Shown: positions 5,693-62,054 of the stretch, piece after piece
Layout: each line of letters opens with the position of its first letter
Numbering within the stretch: position 1 is the stretch's first letter
Source: an uncultured Lachnospiraceae bacterium
GTDB taxonomy: Bacteria > Bacillota > Clostridia > Lachnospirales > Lachnospiraceae
Direction of reading: 5' to 3'
Assembly (NCBI GenBank): GCA_947628225.1
Contig: CANQYY010000009.1
Span: 1 to 64,000 of the forward strand
Length of the DNA: 64,000 nt
Notes under the pieces: model-generated
The model's database searches: none
Told to the model about the DNA's origin: nothing
The model's input: only the letters and a program-made list of their open reading frames with translations
Translations under genes and position numbers: made by a program

Positions 5693-5705
5693 AGGAGAAA
5701 TAGTG

Positions 5706-31297: not shown

Positions 31298-32863
31298 TTA
31301 TTTATAGAGAAAATAATCGAAATCAGCCGTTGTGTTACTGGCAATGCCGTTGGATGTGGCATAGACGCCAATGGTAGTTCCTACAAATCCGCCGGCGACA
31401 TCGGTGCTTAATATCCGGGCGTCCACATGGTCTGCCAGAGTTCTGTAAATCTTATCGTCTGTGCTATAGGAAAAAGTCAAATCCTGCTCCTCCTGGGAAA
31501 TTCTTAAAATTATTTCCGGATAGAAACTATCCAGCACAGCCATCACAATCGTTTCCTCCTGCCCTTTTTCCGTGCGGATCAGGGACAGCGTTGTTTTATC
31601 GCCCTTTTTCCCGATCAAAAACTGGTAATGATAGGACTGGCTCTGATAGAGCACAAGTCCCGCCCTTTCATTTTCTGCCTTAGGCTCAAAGGATACGGCG
31701 GTTTTTGCCATAAAATCAAAAGATAACTGTCTGCGGCACACAAAGCTCGGCCTGCCCTGGGAAGAAATCGTATCGGCGTCCAGTTTTAACTGCAGGTATC
31801 CCGGACGCGCTGTCAGAGAATAATTTTCTTCCTTTGGATTGCGGATATACATATAATTCATGGGGAGCTCGGTGCAGTCGAAATCTTCCCGCGGGGGAAC
31901 GACGTCCACGCTGCTGTGCGGCAGATTCGGCGTCGGCACCGTGCTTTCGATTATCCCCTTCCCCGGATTGATGACCGGCCAGCCGTTTTCCCAGATAAAC
32001 GGAACCAGATAGGTTTCCCTGCCGAGATTACGGTAATACCCTCCCTTTGTCCGGGAGGCAAGGCATACCATCCACCATTCTCCGTTCTGTGTTTCTACAA
32101 TATCCGGATGGCCCACATTGACAATCGGATAATTGCGTCCCAGATGACGGTGGGTCAGGATCGGATTTCCCTTATATCCCTCGAAAGGCTCCGTCAGGCT
32201 TTTGCTCCGGGCAATGGATACAGCGTGTTCATGTCCGGTGCCGGCCTCGGAAATCAGCAGATAGTACCATCCGTCCTTCTTGTACAGATGCGGGCCCTCC
32301 GGCCACTCAACATTCCGCAGGGCTCCGTGCCAGGCGGGATAACTTTCGCCTGTTAACTGCATCGTCTGTAAATCCAGTTTTTGGATATAGATTTCATTAT
32401 CCCCATAATATTGGGAGCCTTCCCTTCTTTCCTGGGTTCCGCAGTAGTAGCATGTTCCGTCGTCGTCAAAGAAAAGCGACGGGTCAATGCCGGAAGAACC
32501 AAGGGGATATGGGTCGGACCAGGGACCGGCGGGGTCGGTGGCAGTGACAATGAAATTGCCGTGCTTGTTATTCGGCGTGACATTAGTCGTTATCATATAG
32601 AAGATACCATCGTGGTAACGGATCGTGGGCGCAAAAATACCCTCGCTTGTTTCTGCTCCCTCCAAAAAAAGCTGTTCCCTGCGGTTTAAGATATTCCCGA
32701 TCTGATTCCAGTGAATCAGGTCCTTGCTGTGAAAAATGGGAACTCCCGGGTAATAGGCAAAGGTAGAGGTAACCAGATAATAATCCTCTGCCACGCGGCA
32801 GATAGAAGGATCCGGATAAAAACCGGGCAAAATAGGGTTAGTATTCATGGCATAAGTACTCAT
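31298..32863 (-). CDS. xynB: GH43 beta-xylosidase / alpha-arabinofuranosidase
   Basis: 521 aa; the ATG at 32863 lies 8 nt after AAGGAG. No signal peptide, so it acts in the cytoplasm on imported xylo-oligosaccharides. The five-bladed propeller (about residues 5-310) shows the catalytic residues: Asp in NPILPGFYPDPSI (general base), Asp in SSGIDPSLFFDDDGT and Glu in WPEGPHLYKKDGWYYL (general acid). The C-terminal 190 residues are a beta-sandwich typical of xylosidase-type GH43. It is transcribed opposite to the transporter genes of the island from a shared control region. Confidence 0.93.
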   Translation of the reverse strand: MSTYAMNTNPILPGFYPDPSICRVAEDYYLVTSTFAYYPGVPIFHSKDLIHWNQIGNILNRREQLFLEGAETSEGIFAPTIRYHDGIFYMITTNVTPNNKHGNFIVTATDPAGPWSDPYPLGSSGIDPSLFFDDDGTCYYCGTQERREGSQYYGDNEIYIQKLDLQTMQLTGESYPAWHGALRNVEWPEGPHLYKKDGWYYLLISEAGTGHEHAVSIARSKSLTEPFEGYKGNPILTHRHLGRNYPIVNVGHPDIVETQNGEWWMVCLASRTKGGYYRNLGRETYLVPFIWENGWPVINPGKGIIESTVPTPNLPHSSVDVVPPREDFDCTELPMNYMYIRNPKEENYSLTARPGYLQLKLDADTISSQGRPSFVCRRQLSFDFMAKTAVSFEPKAENERAGLVLYQSQSYHYQFLIGKKGDKTTLSLIRTEKGQEETIVMAVLDSFYPEIILRISQEEQDLTFSYSTDDKIYRTLADHVDARILSTDVAGGFVGTTIGVYATSNGIASNTTADFDYFLYK

Positions 32864-33004: not shown

Positions 33005-33033
33005 TAGACATATAACAAAAAAAATGATATACT
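33005..33033 (+). promoter_or_regulatory. Promoter of the transporter operon
   Basis: TAGACA (33005-33010), 17-nt spacer, TATACT (33028-33033), about 117 nt before the first gene. The AT-rich leader that follows carries no obvious riboswitch. Confidence 0.7.
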
Positions 33034-33149: not shown

Positions 33150-36100
33150 ATGTCAAAGTTGATGAAGAAAAAGGGCTTAATGACATTTCTCGTTCTCGTG
33201 ATTGTAATAGTTGCTCTTGTGCTGTTCTTCAAACTCAGGGGGACGTCAGGCAGTGACAATTCCGCAAAGTATGAAGGAGCGAATCTGGAAGCGGCGTCGG
33301 ATGAGTACGGCAGAGGCGATACCTACGCTAAATATGTGAGCAGTCAGGGAAATTCTTTTCCTGCGGGAGAGGACAATACATATTCGGTAGATGTATTCGA
33401 CTATGCAAAGAGCGACAAGGTGTCTACGCGAAAAGACGTGGGTCCTGACGGGGATAAGACGGATGCCCTGCAGATTCCGGAAGAGGGATTTGCCGAATAT
33501 AATGTATCGGTGAAGGAAGCGGGATATTATAATATGTATGTAGAGTATTATCCCACTACCGATAAGGATGACCGCGGGATTTCCATTGAATCAAAGCTGG
33601 AGATCAATGGCAAGGTTCCGTTCAACGGCGCCGATGCTATTTCTTTTTCCCGCGTATATACGGATGAGAGCGAACCCACAACGGATAATCAGGGAAATGA
33701 AATCCGCGCGACCCAGATAGAAGATCCGGACAGAGCCTGGATGAAATGTTATTTTGAGGATGCTACCGGTTATGAGGTAGAGCCGTATCATTTTTATTTG
33801 AAAAAGGGAAATAATACCGTTCGCCTGACCGGTGTCAATGAAAAATTGGTTATCCGCAAATTTGTGATCGGGAACAAGGAAGTAACTCCTGCCTATAAAG
33901 AATATCAGGAGAAAAATGCAGGCGCTGCAAACAATGTCAAGAGCGACAGCATTCTGAAGATTCAGGGGGAAACCGCCAGAAGGCGTTCATCGCCATCCCT
34001 GTATGCTTCTTATGACAGAACCTCCAGCGATACCGAATACCAGAACAAAGAGGGAGAGGTAACGCAGAACAATACCGACAAACAGGTTCTGGATATGATT
34101 GGCGGAACCCAGTGGAAAGTCACAAATGACTGGATTGAATGGGATTTTGAGGCTCCGGAGGAAGGGGATTATGTCATTGGCATTAAAGGACGCCAGGGCT
34201 ATAACCGCGGTTACATCGCTAACCGTTCCCTTTATATTGACGGTGAGATCCCGTTTGAAGAGGTTTCCCAGATCCGTTTCAGCTACAGCAATACCTGGTC
34301 GTTGAATTGCCTGCAGGATGAAAACGGAGAACCGTATAAGTTCCATTTGACCAAGGGGCATCACACGATCCGCTTAAAGATTACATTGGGGGATCTCGGA
34401 CAGTATCTGTCCCAGTTGTCAGATAGCGTCTTTAATATGAATAAGATGTATCGTACCATTCTTGTATTGACGGGTACGGAGCCGGATGAATACCGCGATT
34501 ACCAGGTAGAAAAGAAATATCCGGAAGTAATTAAAGCAATGGATATCGAGTCCAAGAGGCTCTATAAAATTGTAGATGATGTGGTTGCCTATACCGGTGA
34601 AAAGGGAGGAGAGATTTCCGTAGCCCAGACACTGGCAGCCCAGATGGAAACCTTTGTGGAAAGGCCGGACAAAATTCCATCCACCCTTTCCAACTTCAAG
34701 GAGAATATCAGTTCTCTGGGTACTTCCATTAACAACCTCAGCGCCACGCCGTTAGATATTGACTATATTGCCATAGCCGGCAGCAAGGAAAGCCTTCCGG
34801 AGGTAAACGAAAACGGCTTTGACAAGGTGGTGCATGAATCCAAGCTGTTCATCAACTCCTTTAAGAGCGATTCTTCCGCTCTTGGTAATGTATATGATTC
34901 TGACGATCCGGACGTTATTGATGTGTGGATTACCGCAGGACGTGACCAGAGTACTATCCTGAAGAACATGGTTGACCAGATGTTTACTCCGGAGAGCGGC
35001 ATTAAGGTAAACGTAAAGCTGATCGATGCCGCCAACACGGTTTCTTCTAACAGCTTAAACGTTATGCTTCCCGCCGTTATGGCAGGAAACGGGCCGGATG
35101 TCGGTCTGTGCATCGCCCAGACAGAGCCGGTCAACTATGCGCTCCGTAATGCCGTTGTCGATTTAAAACAGTTCGGAAGCGAGCTCGACCAGGTACTTTC
35201 GGAATATTATGAAAGCTCCTATGAGTCCTATAAATTTAACGGCGGGTTATACGCCCTGCCGGAAACGCAAAACTATAATGTATTGTTCTACCGTACCGAT
35301 ATTATGGAAGATTTGGGGATTGACCCGGTGGAAGATGTGAAAACATGGGATGATGTGTTGAAGATTCTTCCTATCCTGCAAAAGAACAGCATGACCTTTG
35401 CCGTTCCTTCGGTAGAGCGTAAGATTGGTAATACAACAAACCCCGACCTTGCCAACTATTATGCGCAGCTGTATCAGAGAGGCGGAAGGCTGTATGATGC
35501 GGAAGCGATGCGTACCCTGATTGGCGAACCGGAGGGGATTAAGGCATTTGAATTCTATACGAAGCTCTTTACGAACTATAAGCTGGTAAAACAGTATGAC
35601 TTCGTAAACCGTTTCCGAAGCGGTGAAATGCCGATTGGCGTAGCCGATTATAATAACTTTAATACTCTTGCTGTATTTGCGCCGGAAATTAAAGGTCTTT
35701 GGAACTTCGGCCTGATGCCGGGCGTAGTACAGAAAGACGGAACTCTGAACCGCGCCACACAGTCCTGGGGAACCTGTGCTATGATGCTTCGCGGCGCAGA
35801 GGACAGAAACAAGAAGGATATTAGCTGGAAATTCCTTAAATGGTGGGCAAGCGCAGCAGTTCAGGCGAAATTCGCAAGTGAACTGGAGGCAGTAATGGGC
35901 GCTTCCGCCCGTTATGCGACGGCAAATAAAGTGACCTTTGATACCCTGTCCTGGAGCAGCAAAGAATCGGCTGCCCTGAAGGAGCAGTGGAAAGAGGCAT
36001 TCGGACTGCCGGAGGTAGCGGGAGGATATTATGTATCCCGCCATATTACCAACGCAATCCGTAATGTAATGAATCAGAACGAGGATCCTCGTGAAACAAT

Positions 36101-36191
36101 TCTTGATTATGCGAGAACGATTGACGAGGAGCTGACAAACAAACGGAAAGAGTTTGGTCTGAAAACAATAGAAGTGGAAAAACAAAAATAA
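33150..36191 (+). CDS. Giant membrane-anchored solute-binding protein with two carbohydrate-binding-like modules
   Basis: 1013 aa from the ATG at 33150, with AAAGGAG 12 nt upstream (a bit far). Instead of a lipobox it has one N-terminal membrane helix (about residues 10-30). Two beta-rich modules follow (about 70-245 and 270-445), each ending in an extended strand segment such as FYLKKGNNTVRL or FHLTKGHHTIRL, as in CBM6-like folds. A helical linker (about 450-560) leads to an ABC-type extracellular binding domain (about 570-990) with NVMLPAVMAGNGPDV, LYALPETQNYNVLFYRTD and WKFLKWWAS. Typical sugar-binding proteins are 420-550 aa. It is first in the operon with two permeases. Confidence 0.85.
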   Translation: MSKLMKKKGLMTFLVLVIVIVALVLFFKLRGTSGSDNSAKYEGANLEAASDEYGRGDTYAKYVSSQGNSFPAGEDNTYSVDVFDYAKSDKVSTRKDVGPDGDKTDALQIPEEGFAEYNVSVKEAGYYNMYVEYYPTTDKDDRGISIESKLEINGKVPFNGADAISFSRVYTDESEPTTDNQGNEIRATQIEDPDRAWMKCYFEDATGYEVEPYHFYLKKGNNTVRLTGVNEKLVIRKFVIGNKEVTPAYKEYQEKNAGAANNVKSDSILKIQGETARRRSSPSLYASYDRTSSDTEYQNKEGEVTQNNTDKQVLDMIGGTQWKVTNDWIEWDFEAPEEGDYVIGIKGRQGYNRGYIANRSLYIDGEIPFEEVSQIRFSYSNTWSLNCLQDENGEPYKFHLTKGHHTIRLKITLGDLGQYLSQLSDSVFNMNKMYRTILVLTGTEPDEYRDYQVEKKYPEVIKAMDIESKRLYKIVDDVVAYTGEKGGEISVAQTLAAQMETFVERPDKIPSTLSNFKENISSLGTSINNLSATPLDIDYIAIAGSKESLPEVNENGFDKVVHESKLFINSFKSDSSALGNVYDSDDPDVIDVWITAGRDQSTILKNMVDQMFTPESGIKVNVKLIDAANTVSSNSLNVMLPAVMAGNGPDVGLCIAQTEPVNYALRNAVVDLKQFGSELDQVLSEYYESSYESYKFNGGLYALPETQNYNVLFYRTDIMEDLGIDPVEDVKTWDDVLKILPILQKNSMTFAVPSVERKIGNTTNPDLANYYAQLYQRGGRLYDAEAMRTLIGEPEGIKAFEFYTKLFTNYKLVKQYDFVNRFRSGEMPIGVADYNNFNTLAVFAPEIKGLWNFGLMPGVVQKDGTLNRATQSWGTCAMMLRGAEDRNKKDISWKFLKWWASAAVQAKFASELEAVMGASARYATANKVTFDTLSWSSKESAALKEQWKEAFGLPEVAGGYYVSRHITNAIRNVMNQNEDPRETILDYARTIDEELTNKRKEFGLKTIEVEKQK

Positions 36192-36210
36192 TGAAGAGAG
36201 GAGTGTAAAG

Positions 36211-37146
36211 ATGGGATTTCTGGGAAAATACATGCAGATTAAGAAACGGAACATGGGAATTGCCTGGAAAAAGGCAAAAATGTCCAAGACCTGTTACCTT
36301 TTCTTGCTGCCGTATATGATTGTATTTACTGCATTTTATATTTTGCCGGTATGTATGTCTGTATTCTACAGTTTTACTTATTACAACGTGCTGGAACCGG
36401 CAAGATTCATCGGGTTAGACAACTACATCAACCTGCTTTTGTCAGATGATGTATTCCTGATAGCAGTAAAAAACACCTTTTTGCTGGCGGCGATTACCGG
36501 ACCGCTCGGATATATCATGGCATTTCTCTTTGCCTGGTTCATTAACGAGCTGCCGCGTTATCTCCGCGCCATTGCCGTCGTAGTATTCTATGCGCCGACA
36601 ATATCGGGGCAGGCATATCTTGTATGGTCTATCCTGTTCAGTGGAGATGCCTATGGTTATGTCAATTCGTTCCTGATTAAATTTGGTATCATCAACGAGC
36701 CGATTTTATGGCTGACAGATACCGCCTACATGATGAACGTAGTGCTTATCATTGTACTTTGGATGAGTCTGGGGCAGGGCTTCCTATCCTTCGTAGCCGG
36801 TCTGCAGGGTATTGATAATTCGCAGTTTGAGGCCGGTTATGTGGACGGAGTCAGGAACCGCTGGCAGGAATTGTGGTACATTACCCTGCCAAACATGAAG
36901 CCTATGCTTTTGTTCGGAGCCGTAATGGCGATCACGCAGTCCTTTGGCGTTGCGGATGTAACAATGGCGCTTTGCGGTTTCCCAAGTACAGACTATGCGG
37001 CGCGGACGGTTGTAACCCATTTGATTGACTATGGTACTACGAGATTTGAAATGGGCTACGCTTCGGCGATAGCAACGATACTGTTTGCCGTAATGCTTCT
37101 GTTAAATAAAGCCATACAGGCGATGCTTAGCAAAGTGGGAACTTGA
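36211..37146 (+). CDS. ABC sugar permease (MalF/LplB type), transporter 1
   Basis: 311 aa; the ATG at 36211 follows GAGGAG. It is an inner-membrane permease of the CUT1 carbohydrate family with about six helices, beginning SKTCYLFLLPYMIVFTAFYI. The ATPase-contact EAA loop is QFEAGYVDGVRNRWQELWYI followed by TLPNMKPM. It is paired with the next permease and the giant binding protein. No ATPase gene occurs in the island, so a shared MsmK/UgpC-type ATPase from elsewhere is expected. Confidence 0.93.
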   Translation: MGFLGKYMQIKKRNMGIAWKKAKMSKTCYLFLLPYMIVFTAFYILPVCMSVFYSFTYYNVLEPARFIGLDNYINLLLSDDVFLIAVKNTFLLAAITGPLGYIMAFLFAWFINELPRYLRAIAVVVFYAPTISGQAYLVWSILFSGDAYGYVNSFLIKFGIINEPILWLTDTAYMMNVVLIIVLWMSLGQGFLSFVAGLQGIDNSQFEAGYVDGVRNRWQELWYITLPNMKPMLLFGAVMAITQSFGVADVTMALCGFPSTDYAARTVVTHLIDYGTTRFEMGYASAIATILFAVMLLLNKAIQAMLSKVGT

Positions 37147-37163
37147 TAGGAGGTATAGCAACG

Positions 37164-38027
37164 ATGAAATTAATCAAAATCAAAAAGAGGAAACCGAATC
37201 GTTCTCTCGGTGGCGACATCGGTATTTACATCCTGCTTATACTGTTTGGTATATTCTTTGTTTTGCCGCTTGTATACTCTATCAGTAGCGCTTTTAAACC
37301 CTTGGATGAGATTTATCTCTATCCGCCGAGATTTTTTGTAAAAAACCCTACGTTTAATAACTTCCAGGATTTGCTTGTTGTTATGTCAAGTTCCTATGTG
37401 CCGTTTACCCGATATGTATTTAATACAGTATTAGTTACTTTAATAGGTACGGTAGGACATTTGATCGTCGGTTCTATGGCAGCTTATGTACTGGCAAAAT
37501 ACGATTTTCCGGGAAGTAAAAGAATTTTCAAGATTATTCAGGCGGCGATCATGTTCAATGCCTATGTATTACAGATTCCGACGTATCTGGTACTGACCTC
37601 TCTGGGGTGGATTGATACATATCTGGCATTGATCGCGCCGGCGCTGGCGCTTCCCATGGGATTATTCCTGATGAAACAGTTTATGGAACAGATTCCGGAC
37701 GCGCTGATTGAAGCGGCAAAGATTGACGGCGCAAAAGAGGGAAGAGTATTCCTTCAAATTGTAATGCCTAACGTAAAACCGGCATGGCTGACGGTAACTA
37801 TTTTCTCTGTACAGAACCTTTGGAATATGAAAGGACAGGTATACATTTATTCGGAGGAGTATAAAATGCTCCCATACGCGCTGCAGCAGATCATGCAGGG
37901 TGGTGTATCCCGTGCCGGCGTTGGCTCTGCGGCCACTATGGTCGTTATGATGGTGCCGATTATAATCTTTATATTAGCAGAGAGTAATATTCTGGAAACA
38001 ATGGCTAGTTCCGGTATCAAAGACTGA
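37164..38027 (+). CDS. ABC sugar permease (MalG/YtcP type), transporter 1
   Basis: 287 aa from the ATG at 37164, 10 nt after AGGAGG; the earlier in-frame TTG lies in the upstream gene. It has six membrane helices (first: IGIYILLILFGIFFVLPLVY). The EAA motif is LIEAAKIDGAKEGRVFLQIV then MPNVKPAWL, as in MalG-type partners. It forms a heterodimer with the product of the gene 18 nt upstream. Substrate specificity comes from the binding protein, here probably xylan-derived oligosaccharides. Confidence 0.93.
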   Translation: MKLIKIKKRKPNRSLGGDIGIYILLILFGIFFVLPLVYSISSAFKPLDEIYLYPPRFFVKNPTFNNFQDLLVVMSSSYVPFTRYVFNTVLVTLIGTVGHLIVGSMAAYVLAKYDFPGSKRIFKIIQAAIMFNAYVLQIPTYLVLTSLGWIDTYLALIAPALALPMGLFLMKQFMEQIPDALIEAAKIDGAKEGRVFLQIVMPNVKPAWLTVTIFSVQNLWNMKGQVYIYSEEYKMLPYALQQIMQGGVSRAGVGSAATMVVMMVPIIIFILAESNILETMASSGIKD

Positions 38028-38043
38028 TGAAGGAGGAAAGAAA

Positions 38044-39528
38044 ATGAGATTATTTAAACGATTTACTTCTGTATTTGCGTTCCTGCTCGTTACATCCCTC
38101 CTGATAGGCAGCGTAGAATCTCTGGCAAACAGTTCCGATACAGACCGTTATACCTATACATACGACTGTTGGGATGTTGACAGGGAATCGCCGGATGCTT
38201 ATTCAGTAAGGCGTACTATTACAGGTGCAAATTTCCCATGCGGAAGCTTTAAGGGCCCCCAGGGACTTTATGTGGTGGGAAATGAGATGTATGTAACAGA
38301 TACCGGTAATAACCGGATTGTCCATTTTACATTTAAAAATGACAATTTTTCTTATGTAGAACAGATTAACGGTTATACCAACCAACAGGGACAGAGGGTA
38401 AACTTTAAAACACCTCAGGATTGTTATGTGACGGAGGGCGGAGAGATTTATATTGCTGACACCGGCAACAATCTCATTGTTCATCTGGATAAGGATAAAA
38501 AGTTAGTAAAAACAATCGGAAGACCAAATGACAGTACATACGAAGAAAAATCCTTTTTACCGCAGCATATTGTAGTGGACAGTTCAAACCGTATTTTTGC
38601 CCAGGTGCAGAATATTAATAAAGGATTTATGGAATTTGATTCCCAGGGCGGTTTTACCGGTTATGTAGGAGCCAGCGAGGTTACCTATGACTTCTTTACC
38701 TACCTGTGGAAAATGGTTGCCACGAAAGAGCAGAGAGAGCAGATGGAGCTGTTTGTTCCGACCGAATATTCCAATTTGTGTCTGGACTCCGAGGGCTTTA
38801 TCTATGCAACCATCAGCAATCCGGACGGCGCCATTGAGTCGGCAGAACCGATTCGTAAGCTAAATGCAAAGGGAACGGATATTCTTGTGCGAAACGGCTA
38901 CAATGACCCATACGGCGACCTTCGTTATACGGATGAGGGAGAGTTAAAGGATCCTTCCAAATTTGCCGATATTACCTGCCTTCCCAATGATGTATATTAT
39001 GCGCTGGATAGCAATAAGGGGCGTATCTTTGCTTATGATTTCCAGGGAAATATGCTCTATGCCTTTGGCGGTCATGGTTATAAGGCGGGATACTTTATGA
39101 ATCCGTGCGCGATAGAAGATATGGGAGATTCGCTTTTGGTCGTAGACCAGAATCTGGGGAATATTACCCAGTTTACTCTGACAGAGTATGGAAAACTCAT
39201 AAACGAGGGGCTTTCCCTTTACAAGGAAGGCGAGTACGACGCTTCTGCAGACACCTGGAGAAAGGTCCTGAAGCTGAATGGTAACTACGACCAGGCATAT
39301 ATTGGCATTGGCCGCGCGCTTCTCCGTCAGGAACACTATCAGGAGGCAATGGATTATTTTAAATTGAAACTGGACGACAAGAACTATTCCAAAGCCTATA
39401 AGCTTTATCGAAAGGAATGGTTTGAGGACCATATCAAAGTCATCCTGATTGTTCTGGCAGTATTTATTCTCCTTTGCTTTGGTATCGGCTTTGTAAAGAA
39501 AGCCAGAAGGGAGGTTGAGAAAGGATGA
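38044..39528 (+). CDS. NHL-repeat and TPR membrane-anchored extracellular protein
   Basis: 494 aa; the ATG at 38044 follows AAGGAGGAAAG. A signal peptide (about 1-28) is followed by an NHL-type beta-propeller (about 60-370) with repeats such as GPQGLYVVGNEMYVTDTGNN and GEIYIADTGNNLIVHLD. One or two TPR units follow (about 380-455, including EGEYDASADTWRKVLKLNGN). A C-terminal membrane helix (about 466-485) ends in a basic tail. The topology puts propeller and TPR outside. No catalytic motif is visible; it may be a scaffold linking the binding protein, Yip1 and DUF5696 products. The gene overlaps the Yip1 gene by 4 nt. Confidence 0.82.
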   Translation: MRLFKRFTSVFAFLLVTSLLIGSVESLANSSDTDRYTYTYDCWDVDRESPDAYSVRRTITGANFPCGSFKGPQGLYVVGNEMYVTDTGNNRIVHFTFKNDNFSYVEQINGYTNQQGQRVNFKTPQDCYVTEGGEIYIADTGNNLIVHLDKDKKLVKTIGRPNDSTYEEKSFLPQHIVVDSSNRIFAQVQNINKGFMEFDSQGGFTGYVGASEVTYDFFTYLWKMVATKEQREQMELFVPTEYSNLCLDSEGFIYATISNPDGAIESAEPIRKLNAKGTDILVRNGYNDPYGDLRYTDEGELKDPSKFADITCLPNDVYYALDSNKGRIFAYDFQGNMLYAFGGHGYKAGYFMNPCAIEDMGDSLLVVDQNLGNITQFTLTEYGKLINEGLSLYKEGEYDASADTWRKVLKLNGNYDQAYIGIGRALLRQEHYQEAMDYFKLKLDDKNYSKAYKLYRKEWFEDHIKVILIVLAVFILLCFGIGFVKKARREVEKG

Positions 39529-40196
39529 GCATAAAAGAAAGACTGTGTAATAAGGAAAGCTGGCTGTGTTATCGCGATACGATGCGCTATGCGTTGCACT
39601 GTTGTGTTCGGCCTTTTGACGGTTTTTGGGATTTGACCCATGAGAAGAGAGGGTCTTTAGCAGCCGCCAATACAATCGTCATTCTGGTGCTTTTAACTAA
39701 TCTTTTAAAACTTGGCTGTACCAGCTTCATGTTTGACGCCGGCCGGGTAAACTGGGATGATGTTAATATGATAATGGAAATCGCCCAGTTTTTAGTACCG
39801 TTTATTGTCTACTGTGTGGCCAACTGGTGTCTTACCACGTTGTTTGACGGGAAAGGAAGACTGAAGGATATTTGGATGGGAACGGCATATGCCATGACGC
39901 CTTATATACTGATTCAGATTCCGATGATTATAATTAGTAACTTTGTAACACTTGAAGAGGGTGCTTTTTATGACTACTTTGGATACTTCTCCTTAGTCTG
40001 GTGCGGTTTCCTTGTAGTGGCGTCCGTTATGATGATCCATGACTTCCTGTTAGGAAAGACATTTTTGTCATTAATATTTACTGCGGTTGGAATGCTGATT
40101 ATTATATTCCTTTTAGTACTCTTCTTCAGTCTGATTACGGATGGTTTCGATTATTTCTACTCGATTTATGAAGAAACTATTTTCCGTATGTATTGA
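39525..40196 (+). CDS. Yip1-family five-helix membrane protein
   Basis: 223 aa, ATG overlapping the previous stop. It is a polytopic membrane protein with about five hydrophobic segments. The short cytoplasmic N terminus (RYALHCCVRPFDGFWDLTHE) matches the bacterial Yip1-domain pattern of a P-x-x-G-F-W-x-x-x-x-E/K motif before the first helix. The helices include VPFIVYCVANWCLTTLF and the GTAYAMTPYILIQIPMII segment. The molecular role of bacterial Yip1 proteins is not established. Here it is coupled to the NHL-TPR gene and overlaps the next gene region, implying one complex. Confidence 0.78.
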   Translation: MSIKERLCNKESWLCYRDTMRYALHCCVRPFDGFWDLTHEKRGSLAAANTIVILVLLTNLLKLGCTSFMFDAGRVNWDDVNMIMEIAQFLVPFIVYCVANWCLTTLFDGKGRLKDIWMGTAYAMTPYILIQIPMIIISNFVTLEEGAFYDYFGYFSLVWCGFLVVASVMMIHDFLLGKTFLSLIFTAVGMLIIIFLLVLFFSLITDGFDYFYSIYEETIFRMY

Positions 40197-40216
40197 TGAA
40201 AGGAGGAAATATCAGA

Positions 40217-42805
40217 ATGAAAAACAAATTGTATTTACTCCTTGTTGCAGTACTTTGCTGCTTTGTTCTCTCTGCCTGTGGAGATGAAGGCTCCGGGACG
40301 GGAGAATTGGCGGCCTATGAATATGATAACAGCGGAGATGTTACGATTGCCAATGATTCGCTTAGCCTTACGGTAAGCGGCTCCTCTACCCAGGTTGAGA
40401 TTAAGGATAAAAAATCAGGAAAGACATATCGTTCCAATCCGTCAGCGGCTGATATTGCAAAGTATGCAAATGCAACAGGACAGCACAGGGATATTTTAAG
40501 CGCCACGCTGGGATTAACGTATTCCAATATCACGGATACGCAAAAACAGATTGATAACTATGGCTCCTGTATCATAAACGGCAATTACAAAATTGAAAAA
40601 GTGAGTGACACAGAAGTAAAGGTTAGTTATTCCATTGGCGACTTTGAAAAGACTTATGCCTGTCCGGTCGCAATAAAAGAATCCAGAATGAACCAGTTTT
40701 TGGAGAAAATGAGCCGTTCCGACCAGTCTTCGGTAAAACGTTATTACAATTACTATAATTATGAAGAACTGACGGGAGAATACGCGGACGAAACATCGGC
40801 AAAGACGTTGGAAGAGGCGGAGGCACTGTTCCCGGATTTGCAGGATGAACCGATTTATTATCTGTCAGCGGATATAACAGATGCGAAACTTCAGTCCTGC
40901 GAAAAATATTTTAAGGCGGTAGGCTATACGTTGGATGACCGGATTAAAGATATGGGCAATTATAAAGTGTCCCGTAATGAAGGGAAACCAATCTTTGATA
41001 TTTCTATCCATTATGTGTTAGACAATGACCAGCTGCTGGTAAAGGTTCCGATGAAGGAAATCCAGTATAATGAAGATTATCCGATTGTAAAGCTGGAAGT
41101 CCTTCCTTATATGGCGGCAGCCAACACCACGGAAAAGGGATACCTTTTTGTTCCGGACGGAATGGGCGGACTGATTCATTTCAATAATGGAAAAACAGAA
41201 CAGCAGACCTACCAGAGCGACCTGTACGGTTGGGATTACGGACAAAACCGTTCCATGATCGTAGATGAAACAAAATCCAATTTCCCGGTATTTGCGATTT
41301 CCAATGAAACGGCAAAGGATTCGGTTCTCTGTGTATCCGAGGAGGGAAGCTCCTATGCGACGGTAGAAGCGGATATTGCCGGAAAGAAAAACGGATATAA
41401 TTACAGTACCTTTGTATACTCTATGGTTCATGGAGAAACCATGGACGTAGCTTCCAAGTCAGATGCTACGGTCCGCGTTTACGAAGACGGACTGCCGGAT
41501 GAAACACTGACCCAGCGTTATATCTTTTCCACGAGGATGGAATATTCAGAGCTGGCTGCCGTGTACCGTGAATATCTGATGAAACGGTATCCGGAATTAG
41601 TAAAACAGGAAAAGAGCGAAGTGCCATTGGCAGTTGAAATGATAGGCGCGGTAGATGACACAGAGCATATCTTAGGATATCCGATTGTGCGTTCCCAGTC
41701 CCTGACCTCCTATGAGCAGGCTCAGAATATTCTAAAGAGCCTGAAGGATGCGGGTATTGGAACGATAAATGCCAAATACACCGGTTGGTTTAACGGAGGC
41801 GTTAAACAGACCTCGGCAAAGAAGGTGCGTCTGGTGGGACGTCTGGGAAGCAAATCGGATTTGACGGATCTGACTGCTTATGCAGAAAAGACGGACGGTC
41901 TGAACCTGTTCCTGAATGGAAACTTTATGTATGTATACAAAGATAAACTCTTTGACGGTTTTGGACCGAGGAAAAATGCCGCTAAGTTCTGCAGCAGGGA
42001 ATTATGTGAGCTGTATACATTAGACCCGGTTACTTATCAGGCAAATGAGGATTATATTAACTATCACAATTATGATACCTATTATCTGCTGAAGCCTTCT
42101 TATTCCATGGATGCGATTGACAGCTATGTAGAGGATATTACCGACTACGGAACCAGAAACATCAGCTTTGAGGATATAGGTTCCCAGCTTGCCGGCGATT
42201 ACAATCCGAAGGATCCTGTTTCCCGCGAAGCTTCCATGAACCTTCAGGCAGATAAGATGAAATCACTGAAGGGAAGCGGCAATAAGGTAATGATAACCGG
42301 TGGTAACCAATACGCAGTTCCGTATGCAGATTTTGTTACCGATATGAATATTGCCAGCAAGCCGGTCAATCTCATTGATGAGCAGATACCATTCTATCAG
42401 ATGGCGCTGCACGGACTGGTTAATTATTCCGGCGAGGCATTAAACCTGGCAGAGGATGAGGAAGAGAGCATCTTAAAATCCGCAGAAACCGGAGCCGGCC
42501 TGTATTACACCTACATATATGAAAATACCAGTGTATTACAGGATGGCAAATATACAAGATATTATGCCTGCAACTTTGACCAGTGGAAAGAGGATACGGT
42601 AAACCTTTACAACAAGTTTAAGGAACAGTTGGGAGATATCTACAATCAATTTATTACCTCCCATGAGAAAGTGGCAGATGGCGTTTACAAGACAACTTAT
42701 GAAAATGGAAAGACAGTACTCGTAAATTACAATTACAATGATTATAATTATGAAGGAACTGCCGTTCCGAAACGAGATTTTGTCACGATAGGAGGTGAGA
42801 AATAA
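40217..42805 (+). CDS. DUF5696-type surface lipoprotein
   Basis: 862 aa from the ATG at 40217, 10 nt after AGGAGG. Lipobox CFVLSAC gives lipidation at Cys21. The N-terminal half is beta-rich (about 45-460). The C-terminal half (about 480-800) reads like an alpha/beta barrel, with segments VPLAVEMIGAVDD, AGIGTINAKYTGWFNGG, NLFLNGNFMYVYKD, ISFEDIGSQLAGDYNP and KVMITGGNQYAVPYADFV. From memory, this arrangement fits DUF5696 proteins found beside sugar ABC genes. Barrel plus beta-sandwich suggests a glycosidase-like fold, but no catalytic pair is proven. It follows the Yip1 gene and precedes the second permease pair. Confidence 0.72.
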   Translation: MKNKLYLLLVAVLCCFVLSACGDEGSGTGELAAYEYDNSGDVTIANDSLSLTVSGSSTQVEIKDKKSGKTYRSNPSAADIAKYANATGQHRDILSATLGLTYSNITDTQKQIDNYGSCIINGNYKIEKVSDTEVKVSYSIGDFEKTYACPVAIKESRMNQFLEKMSRSDQSSVKRYYNYYNYEELTGEYADETSAKTLEEAEALFPDLQDEPIYYLSADITDAKLQSCEKYFKAVGYTLDDRIKDMGNYKVSRNEGKPIFDISIHYVLDNDQLLVKVPMKEIQYNEDYPIVKLEVLPYMAAANTTEKGYLFVPDGMGGLIHFNNGKTEQQTYQSDLYGWDYGQNRSMIVDETKSNFPVFAISNETAKDSVLCVSEEGSSYATVEADIAGKKNGYNYSTFVYSMVHGETMDVASKSDATVRVYEDGLPDETLTQRYIFSTRMEYSELAAVYREYLMKRYPELVKQEKSEVPLAVEMIGAVDDTEHILGYPIVRSQSLTSYEQAQNILKSLKDAGIGTINAKYTGWFNGGVKQTSAKKVRLVGRLGSKSDLTDLTAYAEKTDGLNLFLNGNFMYVYKDKLFDGFGPRKNAAKFCSRELCELYTLDPVTYQANEDYINYHNYDTYYLLKPSYSMDAIDSYVEDITDYGTRNISFEDIGSQLAGDYNPKDPVSREASMNLQADKMKSLKGSGNKVMITGGNQYAVPYADFVTDMNIASKPVNLIDEQIPFYQMALHGLVNYSGEALNLAEDEEESILKSAETGAGLYYTYIYENTSVLQDGKYTRYYACNFDQWKEDTVNLYNKFKEQLGDIYNQFITSHEKVADGVYKTTYENGKTVLVNYNYNDYNYEGTAVPKRDFVTIGGEK

Positions 42806-43720
42806 ATGGCTCGTAAAAAGAAAAAGAAAACTTTGGCATTTAAGAATGCAGTTGCCGGCTATTTATTCATTGCCCCATTTATACTGGGATTTGTCCTGTT
42901 CATGGTAATTCCGCTGGCACAATCTCTTCGGATGAGTTTCAGTGATGTTACTCCGGATCCGTCTGCCGGCGGTGTCGTGATGGCATGGGCGGGGATCAAA
43001 AATTTCCGAAATGCCTTTATGGTGGATAAGGACTTTGTTCCCTATCTCATCCAGGAACTTTTGAAAATGGCATCTAATGTGCCGGCTACTTTGATTTTCA
43101 GTTTCTTTATTGCGTTACTGTTAAATCAGAATTTCAAGGGAAGAGGAGTTGTTCGTGCTATCTTTTTCCTGCCGGTTATCTTATCCTCCGGTGTTATTGT
43201 CGGTCTGGAAACCAACAACTCATTGCTGAAGGATATGCAGGAAGTTATTGAACATACGTCCAATGACTCCAGCGTGACCGGTGTGCTGGAAAGCATTTTG
43301 GTAACCTCGGAAAGCAGTCCGATGGCGACGATGTTTAACTATGTATTCCAGATTATAAACAGTGTTTATGATATTGCCATTGCTTCCGGCATACAGATTA
43401 TTATCTTCTTATCCGGTCTGCAGACGATATCGCCAAGTATGTTTGAGGCAGCAAAAATTGAGGGCTGTACGGCATGGGAAAGCTTTTGGAAGATTACTTT
43501 GCCAATGGTAAGCTCCATGATACTCGTAAACTTTGTTTATACGGTAATCGATTTCTTCCTAAAATCCGACAACACGGTTATGGAGAAGATATCGGAGGAA
43601 GTAGGACAATTAAAATATGGATTTAGTTCGGCGATGGCTTGGATTTATTTCCTGTGCGTGATATTGGTGCTGGGAATTGTATCCTTGATTATTTCCAGAA
43701 AGGTGTACTATTATGAGTAA
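42806..43720 (+). CDS. ABC sugar permease (LplB type), transporter 2
   Basis: 304 aa; the ATG directly follows the DUF5696 stop, with AGGAGG 7-8 nt upstream. The first helix is AVAGYLFIAPFILGFVLFMV. The EAA loop is MFEAAKIEGCTAWESFWKI then TLPMVSSM. It is a CUT1 carbohydrate permease. An inserted region (about residues 135-170, rich in Glu, Ser and Thr) lengthens one periplasmic-side loop relative to the transporter 1 permease. It overlaps its partner gene by 8 nt. Confidence 0.92.
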   Translation: MARKKKKKTLAFKNAVAGYLFIAPFILGFVLFMVIPLAQSLRMSFSDVTPDPSAGGVVMAWAGIKNFRNAFMVDKDFVPYLIQELLKMASNVPATLIFSFFIALLLNQNFKGRGVVRAIFFLPVILSSGVIVGLETNNSLLKDMQEVIEHTSNDSSVTGVLESILVTSESSPMATMFNYVFQIINSVYDIAIASGIQIIIFLSGLQTISPSMFEAAKIEGCTAWESFWKITLPMVSSMILVNFVYTVIDFFLKSDNTVMEKISEEVGQLKYGFSSAMAWIYFLCVILVLGIVSLIISRKVYYYE

Positions 43721-44708
43721 AATGAACAAATTTAAGTCTTTCAGGGAACGAAACAAAAAATCCAATGGCTACCTGCTTAGAAAAACATCCTTTAACGTAG
43801 CATATAAAATTATTCGTACAATATTGCTGTTTGGATTGTGTTTCCTGATTTTGCAACCATTGTTAAACAAAATATCTGTCAGTTTTATGGAGGAACGGGA
43901 TTTATATGACTCTACGGTAAATGTCATTCCCCGGCACTTTACGCTCAGTAATTATAAGATTGCATCATCACTGATGAGCTACTGGCAGTCACTGGGAAAT
44001 ACAGCGTTAATTTCACTGTTAGTCAGTGTCTTGCAGATTATTTCCTGTACGCTGGTGGGCTATGGCTTCGCCAGATATAAGTTCCCGTTAAAGGGACTGT
44101 GGTTTGGTATGGTTATTCTGGTAATTGTAATTCCGCCATCCACAATTCATGCGGCCCTTTACCTGAACTTCCGTTACTTTGATATTTTCGGACTTTTCCG
44201 GCTTATAACCGGCGAGCCGCTGAACCTGCTGGATTCACTGGTGCCGTATGCCCTGATGTGTCTGGGCTGTATGGGCTTAAAGAGCGGTCTGTACATTTAC
44301 ATGCTGCGGCAGTTCTTCCGCGGCATACCAAAGGAGCTGGAAGAGGCAGCTTATGTGGATGGATGCGGTAAGATTATGACCTTTATCCGTATCATGCTTC
44401 CGGATGCAAAACCGATGATAACATCCTGCTTTTTGTTCTCTTTCGTATGGCAGTGGACAGACAGCTTTTATTCCCGGATGTTCCTATCCTCGGATTTTGT
44501 CCTGCTCTCGAATAAGCTGTCAGGCCTGGCGGGGGCGCTGGATGGTTATCTGGACGCCAGGGGGATTGCCCAAAAGGCTACAACGGCATATTCCGGAGCC
44601 ATGGTGGGAACCGGAACCCTGATTACGATCATCCCGTTGATCATCGTATATCTGTTTGCTCAGAAAGGCTTTGTAGAGAGCTTGAGCCAGTCGGGACTGA
44701 AGATGTAA
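43713..44708 (+). CDS. ABC sugar permease (YtcP/MalG type), transporter 2
   Basis: 331 aa, start overlapping the preceding gene. It has six helices (first: IIRTILLFGLCFLILQPLLN) and an EAA motif ELEEAAYVDGCGKIMTFIRI then MLPDAKPM. It forms the second permease heterodimer with the 42806 gene product. The arrangement resembles the LplB-YtcP pair of the aldouronate cluster of xylan-degrading Paenibacillus. The following intergenic hairpin separates it from its binding-protein gene. Confidence 0.92.
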   Translation: MSKMNKFKSFRERNKKSNGYLLRKTSFNVAYKIIRTILLFGLCFLILQPLLNKISVSFMEERDLYDSTVNVIPRHFTLSNYKIASSLMSYWQSLGNTALISLLVSVLQIISCTLVGYGFARYKFPLKGLWFGMVILVIVIPPSTIHAALYLNFRYFDIFGLFRLITGEPLNLLDSLVPYALMCLGCMGLKSGLYIYMLRQFFRGIPKELEEAAYVDGCGKIMTFIRIMLPDAKPMITSCFLFSFVWQWTDSFYSRMFLSSDFVLLSNKLSGLAGALDGYLDARGIAQKATTAYSGAMVGTGTLITIIPLIIVYLFAQKGFVESLSQSGLKM

Positions 44709-44800: not shown

Positions 44801-46234
44801 ATGAAAGCAAGCATGCAAAAATTAATTGCTGTGGGCTTGAGTGTGATGCTTGTCGTAGGGACCTTGACAGGCTGTGGAGGCGATAGCGATAATAAAACAG
44901 CTTCCGGGTCAGCTACAACAGGTAACAACAACGGCACGTCAAGCGGACAAAAGAAAACCTTTGATGATCTGGGTGGCATGAGCATTACTATCAGTGACTG
45001 GTATACAGCGCCCGAATCTGCACCAACAACAGATTATGAAAAGAAAACAGAGCAGTACAGAAAGCAGATTCAAAAGGATTACAATTTTAAGATCAAACGT
45101 GAAAACACAATGGCATGGGGCGACACCCTGGAAACTTACACAACACAGGTAATGGCGAATAATCCAAAGTATCAGTTGTACTATCTGTATCAGGAGTGGA
45201 TTAGTGAGCCGGTATTGAAAGGCTTGATGAAAGACCTTTCCAAACTCCCTGAATTTGATTTTACGGAGGAAAAATGGAATCCTACCGTAACAAAGAGAAT
45301 GAGTATTGGTAACGGTATCTGGGGAATGAATATTGAATCTGAGCCGCGAGGCGGAATCTTCTTCAATAAGCGTCTTTTGAAAGAGGCAGGTATTGATCCG
45401 GATGAACCGTATGATTTGCAGCAAAACAATCAATGGACATGGGAAAAATTTGAAGAGTACTGCAAGAAGCTGACAAGAGATACCGATGGCGATGGAAAAA
45501 TCGACCAGTATGCTATGGGAAGTTTCAATAAGTATTACTTAAAGATGTGTGCAGCTTCTAACAATGCCACCTATGTAGACTTTAAGGACGGTAAGTATGT
45601 GAACGGAATTAAAACCCAGGAATTTAAAGATGCAATGAACTGGGGCGTTAGCATTATTAAGAAAGGCTGGATTATGCCGGATCCGCCGGGATCTACTGAC
45701 TGGGCTTGGTATAAGGCTGCTTTCCGTGATGGCGAGGTAGCAATGCAGACATCTGAGGTTTATGAGATCAGCGCTTTCTCTGCTATGGAAGATGAGTGGG
45801 GCTTTGTTATGTTCCCATATAATCAGGCAAACCCGGATGCAACAAACAAAACGGTACCGGACGACAATATTGTTGTAATGCCATCCTGCTTTGATGATGA
45901 AACAGCAGAAAAGATTGCATTTGCTTATGATTTGTACACAGAGCCGACCGAAGGCTTTACTAAGGAGGAAGCTTACAAGGAAGGATATTATCCACAGTTT
46001 AAAGATGAGCGCGCAGTGGATGAAACACTTGTTATGATGAGTCAGGAAGAACATAAGATGCCGGCATATCATATGATGATCAGCGGTATCAATGATGGTG
46101 ATTTTGCTTATGGTGTATATGCATTGGCAGCTACACCGGCACAGCAGATTGAAAAACTTTCTACTGCATGGGATACTAAGATTAATGAGGCAAATGAGGC
46201 ATACGCAAAATTTGCAAAAGAGCACAGTAAATAA
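44801..46234 (+). CDS. Sugar ABC transporter solute-binding lipoprotein, transporter 2
   Basis: 477 aa; the ATG at 44801 follows AAGGAGGAA. Lipobox TLTGC gives lipidation at Cys25, and a Ser/Thr/Asn-rich linker (about 30-50) follows. The bilobed binding domain includes QYRKQIQKDYNFKIKRENT, WGMNIESEPRGGIFFNKRLL and DTDGDGKIDQYAMG, the last a Ca-loop-like segment seen in several CUT1 binding proteins. The length is normal, unlike the giant protein at the start of the operon. It likely captures aldouronic or xylo-oligosaccharides; specificity is inferred from the adjacent GH67 and GH3 genes. Confidence 0.93.
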   Translation: MKASMQKLIAVGLSVMLVVGTLTGCGGDSDNKTASGSATTGNNNGTSSGQKKTFDDLGGMSITISDWYTAPESAPTTDYEKKTEQYRKQIQKDYNFKIKRENTMAWGDTLETYTTQVMANNPKYQLYYLYQEWISEPVLKGLMKDLSKLPEFDFTEEKWNPTVTKRMSIGNGIWGMNIESEPRGGIFFNKRLLKEAGIDPDEPYDLQQNNQWTWEKFEEYCKKLTRDTDGDGKIDQYAMGSFNKYYLKMCAASNNATYVDFKDGKYVNGIKTQEFKDAMNWGVSIIKKGWIMPDPPGSTDWAWYKAAFRDGEVAMQTSEVYEISAFSAMEDEWGFVMFPYNQANPDATNKTVPDDNIVVMPSCFDDETAEKIAFAYDLYTEPTEGFTKEEAYKEGYYPQFKDERAVDETLVMMSQEEHKMPAYHMMISGINDGDFAYGVYALAATPAQQIEKLSTAWDTKINEANEAYAKFAKEHSK

Positions 46235-46372: not shown

Positions 46373-48517
46373 ATGGAAAAATATCAGGATGAAACTTTAT
46401 CTTTTGAGGAACGCGCCGCAGATCTGGCCTCCCGTATGACGTTGGAGGAAAAGGTATATCAGACCCTGCATGGCGCCGCCGCCATAGAGAGATTGGGCGT
46501 CAAGGCATACAATTATTGGAATGAGGCGCTCCATGGAGTGGCGAGAGCCGGTGTGGCTACGGTGTTCCCACAGGCAATCGGCCTGGCAGCGACCTTCGAT
46601 GAAGATTTTCTGGAAAAAGCAGCGGAGGTCATATCAGATGAGGGCAGGGCGAAGTTTAATGTACAGCAAAAATATGGCGACTATGATATTTACAAGGGAT
46701 TGACTTTTTGGTCCCCCAATGTCAATATTTTCCGCGATCCGCGCTGGGGCAGGGGGCATGAAACCTTTGGGGAAGACCCCTATTTGACCTCCCGCCTTGG
46801 AGTGCGCTTTATTAAGGGATTGCAGGGCTCTGATAAAAAGTATTTAAAGGCGGCTGCCTGCGCCAAGCATTTTGCCGTTCACTCGGGACCGGAAGATACC
46901 CGCCATAGCTTTAATGCCGTGGTGTCGGAAAAGGATCTGCGGGAAACTTATCTCCCGGCTTTCAAGGCATGTGTGAAGGAAGCCAATGTGGAAGTGGTGA
47001 TGGGAGCTTATAACCGGACGAATGATGAACCCTGCTGTGGAAGTAAACGTCTGCTGGAGGATATCCTCCGGGGGGAATGGGGATTTAAGGGACATGTAAC
47101 CTCCGACTGTTGGGCGATTAAAGATTTCCATGAATTTCATATGGTCACAGCCAATGCCGTTGAAAGCGTGGCGCTTGCCATGAACCGGGGATGCGACTTA
47201 AATTGCGGGAACATCTACGGAAATCTCTTAAAGGCAGTAGAGCAGGGATTAGTAAAAGAGGAAACAATAGAAACGGCAGTTACCAGACTGCTGACAACCA
47301 GAATGAAGCTTGGACTTTTTGACGCGCCGGAGAAGGTACCGTATCATGCCATATCCTATGATGTAGTAGACAGCAGAAAGCATCAGGAAATAAATGAAGA
47401 GGCGGCAAGAAAGAGTATCGTTCTTTTGAAAAACGAAAATAATATGCTGCCGTTACAAAAAGATGCGATTCATACAATCGGCGTGATTGGCCCGAATGCC
47501 AATAACCGGAAAGCCCTGGTAGGAAATTACGAGGGGACTGCTTCAGAGTATATTACGATACTGGAGGGGATCCAGAGATATGTCGGCGATGACGTGCGCG
47601 TGATGTTTTCCGAGGGCTGTCACCTCTGTAAGGACAGGATCCAGGGATTGTCACAGGGGAACGACCGTATATCGGAGGTTCGTGCCGTGGCAGAGATGTC
47701 GGATGTTATTATTGCCTGTATGGGCCTGGATGCCAGCCTGGAGGGCGAAGAAGGCGACGAGGGAAATGAGTTTGCCAGCGGGGATAAACCGAATTTGGAA
47801 TTGCCGGGACTTCAGGAGGAAATACTGAAAGAATTGGCGGCAACAGGGAAACCGGTCGTTCTTGTCCTGCTTTCCGGCAGCGCTCTTGCCATTCCTTTTG
47901 CCGCGGGAAATATTCCGGCTATTTTGCAGGGCTGGTACCCGGGGGCAAGAGGCGGAAAAGCCATTGCGGAAGTTCTTTTTGGAGATTTTTCACCGGAAGG
48001 AAAGCTGCCGGTTACCTTTTACCGTACGACAGAGGAATTACCGGACTTTACGGATTATTCCATGAAAAACAGAACCTACCGTTATATGAAGAATGAGGCG
48101 CTGTATCCCTTTGGGTATGGCCTTAGCTATACCGACATCAGCTGTCAGGACGCCACACTGGAAAAAACGGGCGATAACTTTATTATAAAAGCCGTTTTGT
48201 CCAATAACGGGGCGAGAATGGGACGGCAGACCTTACAGGTATATGTCAGGGCATGCCGGGAGCAGGAATTAAACTGGCAGTTAAAAGGACTGAAAAAGAT
48301 AGAATTGCAGCCGGGAGAGAAAAAGGAAGTTTCCCTGACGCTGACGGAAGCAGACTTTGGACTTTACAATGAAGATGGCATCCGGGTTTTGGAGGCAGGC
48401 GATTACGAGGTATATGTGGGAACCTCCCAGCCGGATAAAAGGAGTATTGCCCTTACCGGTAAAACGCCGATAAAAGTACCGGTTCATATAAAGGAAAGTA
48501 AAAGGATACCGGAATAA
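46373..48517 (+). CDS. GH3 beta-xylosidase / beta-glucosidase
   Basis: 714 aa; the ATG at 46373 follows AAGGAG. No signal peptide. Domains: (alpha/beta)8 barrel (about 20-320) with YNYWNEALHGVARAG and PNVNIFRDPRWGRGHETFGE, the substrate-binding KHFAVHSGPEDTRH and the nucleophile Asp in FKGHVTSDCWAIKDF. An alpha/beta sandwich (about 345-560) and a C-terminal fibronectin-type domain (about 600-700) follow. The LHGVAR and SDCWA motifs are those of the beta-xylosidase branch of GH3. It probably removes xylose from imported oligosaccharides together with GH43. Confidence 0.93.
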   Translation: MEKYQDETLSFEERAADLASRMTLEEKVYQTLHGAAAIERLGVKAYNYWNEALHGVARAGVATVFPQAIGLAATFDEDFLEKAAEVISDEGRAKFNVQQKYGDYDIYKGLTFWSPNVNIFRDPRWGRGHETFGEDPYLTSRLGVRFIKGLQGSDKKYLKAAACAKHFAVHSGPEDTRHSFNAVVSEKDLRETYLPAFKACVKEANVEVVMGAYNRTNDEPCCGSKRLLEDILRGEWGFKGHVTSDCWAIKDFHEFHMVTANAVESVALAMNRGCDLNCGNIYGNLLKAVEQGLVKEETIETAVTRLLTTRMKLGLFDAPEKVPYHAISYDVVDSRKHQEINEEAARKSIVLLKNENNMLPLQKDAIHTIGVIGPNANNRKALVGNYEGTASEYITILEGIQRYVGDDVRVMFSEGCHLCKDRIQGLSQGNDRISEVRAVAEMSDVIIACMGLDASLEGEEGDEGNEFASGDKPNLELPGLQEEILKELAATGKPVVLVLLSGSALAIPFAAGNIPAILQGWYPGARGGKAIAEVLFGDFSPEGKLPVTFYRTTEELPDFTDYSMKNRTYRYMKNEALYPFGYGLSYTDISCQDATLEKTGDNFIIKAVLSNNGARMGRQTLQVYVRACREQELNWQLKGLKKIELQPGEKKEVSLTLTEADFGLYNEDGIRVLEAGDYEVYVGTSQPDKRSIALTGKTPIKVPVHIKESKRIPE

Positions 48518-51629: not shown

Positions 51630-51640
51630 GGGAGGACAGT

Positions 51641-59893: not shown

Positions 59894-59923
59894 TGTCATG
59901 TAGGTGGAGATAAGGAGGATATG

Positions 59924-60706: not shown

Positions 60707-60754
60707 ACGCAAAGGGAATTGTGATATATGAGTCATAATGCCATTTGCGTTTTT
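60705..60754 (+). terminator. Terminator-like hairpin at the codY end, before flgB
   Basis: AAACGCAAA (60705-60713) pairs with TTTGCGTTT (60744-60752), with an inner ATTGTGA/TCATAAT stem, then TTC. It overlaps the codY stop codon. Only 25 nt remain before flgB. Confidence 0.8.
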
Positions 60755-60779
60755 CTAAGACAAGAAAGGAAGTGTGTAG

Positions 60780-61169: not shown

Positions 61170-61226
61170 GCGCCGTAAGCCCGGAGAAATAAAGAGGATA
61201 AGGTAAACAGAAAGGAAGGGATGAGT

Positions 61227-61664: not shown

Positions 61665-61681
61665 GAGAAAGGAAGGGCATA

Positions 61682-62011: not shown

Positions 62012-62054
62012 TTTGGCGGCATAATAATACATAGCTTTGGGGAGCGAGAAACAT

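Follow-up and report, generated by a model that had tools for sequence, protein, structure and literature searches.

Eight genes at positions 33150-44708 of the stretch analysed here appear to form one copy of a conserved module in which two sugar ATP-binding cassette (ABC) importers of the CUT1 type, together with accessory proteins, capture and import complex glycans, a reading to which we give a probability of roughly 0.62. The stretch (the window) comprises 64,000 nucleotides, positions 1 to 64,000 of contig CANQYY010000009.1 (107,841 bases) in the 2.28 Mb genome GCA_947628225.1 of an uncultured Lachnospiraceae bacterium, the relatives of which are Lachnospiraceae. The gene order (giant binding protein, PermA1, PermA2, NHL-TPR, Yip1, DUF5696, PermB1, PermB2) recurs in more than 100 loci of other genomes, and across Bacillota and Treponema it is kept at identities of 20-40%. 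The first-pass annotation, made from the sequence alone, had proposed an uncharacterised surface system around two sugar importers, and order and co-occurrence across the phylum bear this out. The eight genes are listed below.

33150..36191, + strand: giant membrane-anchored binding protein, 1013 aa, block A (Pfam SBP_bac_1)
36211..37146, + strand: PermA1, sugar ABC permease, UgpA/GlcT-like, block A (BPD_transp_1, E 9e-11)
37164..38027, + strand: PermA2, sugar ABC permease, UgpE/GlcU-like, block A (BPD_transp_1, E 3e-14)
38044..39528, + strand: exported NHL propeller and TPR protein (NHL-TPR) with a C-terminal transmembrane (TM) helix at residues 466-484, block B (NHL, E 4e-12; TPR_2, E 2.5e-7)
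39525..40196, + strand: Yip1-family membrane protein with 4-5 TM helices, block B (Pfam Yip1, E 1e-9)
40217..42805, + strand: DUF5696 lipoprotein, block B (DUF5696, E 5e-191; lipobox)
42806..43720, + strand: PermB1, sugar ABC permease, block B (UgpA-like model, E 8e-9)
43713..44708, + strand: PermB2, sugar ABC permease, block B (BPD_transp_1, E 5e-10)

All eight genes lie on one strand, with junctions of 19, 17, 16, -4, 20, 0 and -8 bp after start correction, and a Shine-Dalgarno sequence is clear before most of the starts. The start of PermA2 was moved from TTG 37143 to ATG 37164, which is preceded by AGGAGG, and that of the DUF5696 gene to ATG 40217, preceded by AAAGGAGG. Seven of the eight genes had been described as coupled; the coupling stands, and the count is raised to all eight, the junctions ranging from -8 to +20 bp. 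Scans for TM helices, signal sequences and lipoboxes predict that every product is membrane-bound or exported, which had been claimed for seven.

Conservation of the module and its two blocks

The same order is found in Lachnospiraceae, Oscillospiraceae, Paenibacillaceae and termite Treponema, and the suggestion of similar groups in Paenibacillus and Lachnospiraceae proved right for both. In a species-level scan (one genome per species, 84,980 species), the 79 best loci came from Lachnospiraceae, Oscillospiraceae, Defluviitaleaceae, Paenibacillus/Cohnella and Treponema and almost all showed this order. Strong DUF5696 matches (E <1e-100) occur in 26 of 37 genomes of the same genus, where two types of locus can be distinguished. 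Type 1 loci are mostly accompanied by GH43, GH3 and GH67 genes, and their DUF5696 proteins are 54-88% identical among the loci compared. Type 2 loci have about 25% DUF5696 identity, stand beside GH43 and GH51-type arabinofuranosidases, and carry NHL-TPR and Yip1 as a single protein of about 690 residues.

To escape best-hit bias, 398 genomes were drawn evenly from the phylum. Strong DUF5696 matches were found in 37, NHL-TPR in 38 and the N-terminal domain of the giant protein in 38; all three were present in 36 of the 40 genomes with any of them, and these genomes span many families. Their co-occurrence gave Fisher p values of 1.9e-51, 1.2e-47 and 2.4e-46, which ignore shared ancestry. Copy numbers of the three markers also agree (3/3/3 in G394, 2/2/2 in G126 and G435). 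Four genomes deviate. In G163, the only one with DUF5696 and no N-domain match, the giant protein is truncated by the contig end (L138); in G302 NHL-TPR lies at a contig end; the other two, G164 and G214, are taken up below. The first-pass annotation was to be abandoned if its genes did not co-occur in other genomes; this was looked at, and the three markers clearly go together. Chance clustering of the eight genes is ruled out by the co-occurrence in this sample and by the conserved order of neighbours. Weak DUF5696 matches (approximately 19-27 bits; L162-L168) are other proteins, and the module is absent there.

The module consists of two blocks, block A (giant binding protein, PermA1 and PermA2) and block B (NHL-TPR, Yip1, DUF5696, PermB1 and PermB2), and block A follows block B in G264, G390, G401 and G444. 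One alternative is that two independent CUT1 importers simply lie in the same operon, one ligand being handled by PermA and the giant protein and another by PermB and a second solute-binding lipoprotein, SBP2, so that NHL-TPR, Yip1 and DUF5696 would be ordinary accessories of PermB and there would be no joint machine. Each block does come with a separate permease pair and a plausible candidate for its binding protein, and genome families f73 and f88 include some lone A blocks (L174, L177, L180, L185) and some lone B blocks (L139, L140, L156-L158, L160, L161). However, far more frequent separation would be expected, and in the 398 genomes block B never occurs without block A, while block A lacks block B in just two genomes (G164 and G214), where the contigs that carry the A genes are 3.8 and 4.3 kb long. 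We therefore consider independent importers doubtful. The strongest argument for a single process served by both permease pairs is that no sampled genome has block B but lacks block A.

Several B blocks together with a separate lone A block were seen in G122, G161, G195 and G225 (f88) and in G100 and G142 (f73), where more than one B block may rely on a single A block. Paenibacillaceae are rich in DUF5696, with a match above cut-off in 68 of 101 sampled genomes and up to 10-11 matches per genome (G460 and G461, both Paenibacillus; G672), in length classes of about 750-790 and 850-900 residues. The complete module is also present in many diderm spirochaetes (Treponema L067-L070, L073, L075, L076, L078, L079, L081-L083), where the surface proteins would be periplasmic. 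Because a strong DUF5696 match occurs in just 5 of 198 sampled genomes of the spirochaete phylum, the distribution suggests horizontal transfer.

Permeases and surface proteins

Both permease pairs consist of two homologous inner-membrane permeases of the CUT1 type, matching UgpA/UgpE and MalG models. PermA1, PermA2 and PermB2 exceed the Pfam cut-off for BPD_transp_1; PermB1 scores 25.2 bits against a cut-off of 26.4 and is recognised through the UgpA model. An extracellular solute-binding protein is represented twice, by SBP_bac_1 matches in the giant protein, where the fold is MalE-like, and in SBP2. The genome has a single OB_MalK-type sugar ABC ATPase gene, which is located outside the cluster, and on a Paenibacillus cellulosilyticus plasmid a ugpC ATPase gene lies immediately 5′ of the module.

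The giant protein has a signal-anchor at residues 9-27 and an SBP_bac_1 match (E 4e-16). In its AlphaFold2 (AF2) model (pLDDT 89.4), a TM helix at the N-terminus is followed by two beta-sandwiches, then by a helical stalk, and finally by a C-terminal CUT1-type solute-binding domain that resembles MalE-like structures. In homologues, the beta-sandwich regions match CBM35 (10 of 26), CBM6 (3 of 26), Golvesin_C and GH115_C, and there is a sub-threshold match to SusF_SusE (E 0.006); the window protein itself scores 23.4 bits for GH115_C against a cut-off of 24.1. As modelled, the two sandwiches look like carbohydrate-binding modules (CBMs). SBP2, the usual ninth member, lies downstream of the module in the window; in Paenibacillus it precedes the giant protein.

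NHL-TPR carries a signal sequence and a single TM helix at its C-terminus, and the Yip1 domain (38.9 bits; gathering score 28.6) belongs to a multi-span membrane protein. NHL-TPR and/or Yip1 is present in all 124 DUF5696 loci in which the contig covers the place, the other two of the 126 loci (L054 and L092) being on contigs that begin at DUF5696. One of them is encoded immediately before DUF5696 in 121 of the 126 loci, and PermB1 directly after it in 122. Profile matches reveal NHL-TPR-Yip1 fusions in at least 33 loci, and an apparent loss of NHL-TPR in L124 (Cohnella) was an artefact of open reading frame picking, the fused gene being present on the reading frames. Since the two are fused in many genomes, they appear to act together, as had been proposed. 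Prokaryotic Yip1 members are distantly related to the eukaryotic Yip1/YIPF family (PMC6682643). The window protein shares the Pfam domain above cut-off with that family, but the kinship is too distant for a trafficking role to be inferred.

The AF2 model of DUF5696 (pLDDT 90.5, pTM 0.88) combines a beta-sandwich with a TIM-barrel, which is the GH129/GH101 fold. The top Foldseek matches are 5opq (E 2.9e-30), 5wzr and GH101 structures (E 2.9e-30 to 1e-17), at 9-12% identity. The sequence profile independently matches 5opq (E 2e-11) and NagBb, though locally. A barrel-type enzyme or binder had been predicted, and the enzyme fold is borne out by these structural matches. DagB (5opq) is an active alpha-1,3-(3,6-anhydro)-D-galactosidase in which mutation of Asp486, Glu517, Glu531 or Asp202 abolishes activity; Asp486 is the counterpart of NagBb Asp435, and the second catalytic residue of NagBb is not kept in DagB itself (PMC5698469).

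A direct residue register between DUF5696 and GH129 was not obtained by sequence, the sub-profile reaching the first barrel strands only, and the register was taken from strand order and spacing, with coordinates not superposed. The presumed counterparts of the catalytic pair in the window protein are D652 and T693 (one is to be added to these numbers, and to D720, when counting from ATG 40217). The presumed nucleophile column has Asp in 70 of 127 DUF5696 proteins, including that of the window, and other residues, mostly S, T, G, N or Y, in 57. Glu occupies the presumed acid/base column in 16 of 127, and under this inferred register the GH129/GH101 pair of Asp and Glu occurs together in 3 of 127. 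The D720 column is acidic in 94%. GH129 itself (PF11308) was found in none of 149 genomes of the phylum searched.

An active-glycosidase role for DUF5696, in which it would trim the polymer at the surface ahead of import, is unlikely. The fold and profile matches to active DagB and to NagBb, the Asp in the window protein and the acidic D720 column argue for activity, and the pair count must be read with the unsuperposed register and with DagB's own lack of the second NagBb residue. Yet the nucleophile is replaced in many proteins and the full pair is rare despite identical modules, and loci directed at different polymers share this one protein. Because the presumed pair is intact in so few sequences, binding is a more likely role than catalysis for DUF5696, probably a pseudo-glycosidase, and a function common to all modules can hardly depend on a pair so rarely kept. 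Part of the family may nevertheless be active, given the register and the conserved D720. The earlier suggestion that the complex trims polysaccharide is weakened accordingly.

Enzyme context and proposed mechanism

The genes flanking the module in the window are as follows.

31298..32863, - strand: GH43 beta-xylosidase, a conserved neighbour in type 1 loci (Pfam)
33005..33033, + strand: promoter-like site TAGACA-N17-TATACT with TG extension, 5′ of the module, weak
44801..46234, + strand: SBP2, second solute-binding lipoprotein (SBP_bac_1, E 6e-10; lipobox)
46373..48517, + strand: GH3 enzyme (Pfam)
48535..50505, + strand: GH67 alpha-glucuronidase (Pfam)
50559..53248, + strand: UxuA (mannonate dehydratase) and a mannitol-dehydrogenase-family protein (UxuB-like), glucuronate catabolism (Pfam)

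GH43 is upstream of the module and divergent to it; SBP2 starts 92 bp past PermB2 and is followed by the GH3, GH67, UxuA and UxuB-like genes. The promoter-like site is one of 51 found by a consensus scan of the region, against 35 expected by chance. Elsewhere in the window, 5703-7823 encodes a 706-residue protein with Listeria-Bacteroides repeats and a leucine-rich-repeat match, probably a surface protein unrelated to the module locus, and 59921-63686 carries a CodY regulator gene with a FliF flagellar M-ring gene downstream, so that flagellar genes appear to start past the xylan locus.

Pfam assignments of these neighbours give the locus a glucuronoxylan context. A simple hydropathy scan saw no signal peptide in GH43, GH3 or GH67, as expected if oligosaccharides are imported first. 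Among 90 neighbours of modules, the enzymes include GH26 (12), GH10 (9), GH3 (8) and GH130 (5), and further neighbours are GH42, GH5, GH67, GH35, GH113 and GH30. This variation indicates that the module is general and that the locus sets the substrate. The description of the genes as part of a glucuronoxylan system holds for the context of this locus and fails as to specificity, the module standing also in arabinan, mannan, xylan and other loci; a glucuronoxylan-specific system is ruled out by its place beside GH43/GH51 arabinan-type genes in the same genus and beside GH26, GH10 and GH130.

What was computed directly is the order of the genes, their co-occurrence and fusions, the folds as predicted, the division into two blocks and the varied enzyme context; the direction of import, the role of DUF5696 as a binder and the substrate are what we infer. 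In the proposed mechanism, the CBM-like domains of the giant protein and DUF5696, as a binder, would most likely retain a branched oligo- or polysaccharide on the cell surface, and NHL-TPR-Yip1 would arrange the surface proteins around the permeases. The binding domains of the giant protein and SBP2 would pass the ligand to PermA and PermB, both powered by a shared MsmX/UgpC-type ATPase encoded elsewhere. The enzymes of each locus would fix the substrate, in the window glucuronoxylan fragments (aldouronates), which once imported would enter a route of cytoplasmic GH67, GH3 and GH43 and UxuAB-type enzymes. Any statement on how PermA and PermB share the work, on physical assembly or on the role of Yip1 is conjecture. 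We suggest still more tentatively, and consider less likely than not, that PermA and PermB depend on each other as obligate partners and that NHL-TPR-Yip1 holds both in one surface assembly, which would thread long branched glycans or hand them over. This would be a functional counterpart of SusCD, driven by ATP and shared by Gram-positives and diderm Treponema.

Several points weigh against a single glycan-import module. The adjacency of SBP2 is inconsistent, many of the loci are from metagenome-assembled genomes, and conserved order is functional coupling and no proof of a single complex. A P. cellulosilyticus plasmid locus (L189; NZ_CP054609.1, 2398-25097) has oxidoreductases as neighbours, not glycosidases, and given these, polysaccharide may be too narrow a term for the ligand. 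The accessory proteins could, further, be sensors: NHL-TPR-Yip1, perhaps with DUF5696, would then mainly signal to a two-component system that transport is under way or that glycan is bound, and would not be a transport scaffold. The topology (extracellular propeller and TPR, TM helix, cytosolic linker, membrane domain) fits signalling, and a histidine kinase and response regulator lie immediately upstream in Butyrivibrio fibrisolvens pNP243. However, the conserved module includes no regulator, none is adjacent at the window locus, and the strict adjacency is to PermB and not to a kinase, which makes a mainly sensory role unlikely.

At L189 the module stands behind ugpC, and its neighbours encode LLM-class flavin oxidoreductases, aldo/keto reductases and an NADPH-dependent oxidoreductase. 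This locus resembles sulfoquinovose monooxygenase loci, and a sulfo-sugar glycoside is a possible ligand of its module.

Relation to known systems

ABC sugar importers normally have one binding protein and one permease pair. The module resembles Firmicutes CUT1 importers that share an MsmX/UgpC ATPase (Ugp, MalEFG and, reportedly, LplA/YtcP-type aldouronate transport in Paenibacillus sp. JDR-2) in its solute-binding domain, two heteromeric permeases, lack of an ATPase gene in the locus and glucuronoxylan enzyme neighbours. It differs in having two permease pairs and two binding proteins per unit, in NHL-TPR, Yip1 and DUF5696, and in a giant binding protein that is TM-anchored and carries CBM-like domains. 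DUF5696 is like the GH129/GH101 alpha-N-acetylgalactosaminidases and GH129-like DagB in whole-chain fold and local sequence profile, but has mostly lost the presumed catalytic residues and is permanently linked to ABC permeases.

In the SusC/SusD-SusE/F systems of Bacteroidota, surface glycan binders are tied to an importer and GH enzymes. The module would work similarly, but with other proteins and with ATP where Sus uses TonB, and is not a member of that family of systems.

The main texts of the JDR-2 paper and of the Butyrivibrio transcriptome and proteome papers mention neither NHL nor Yip1. No mention of DUF5696, and no paper describing the full gene set or a role in it for DUF5696 or bacterial Yip1, was found in the open-access papers searched. 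NCBI annotation names single genes only ('NHL repeat-containing protein', 'YIP1 family protein', 'DUF5696 domain-containing protein') and no system. The permeases and solute-binding domains are already known as CUT1-type; the complete set is apparently undescribed.

A fixed set of two permease pairs and three proteins without an assigned role is thus held together across distant bacteria and many plant-polysaccharide loci. The module offers a testable function for DUF5696 and for bacterial Yip1-domain proteins, and is relevant to the uptake of large glycan fragments by Gram-positive bacteria of gut and soil.

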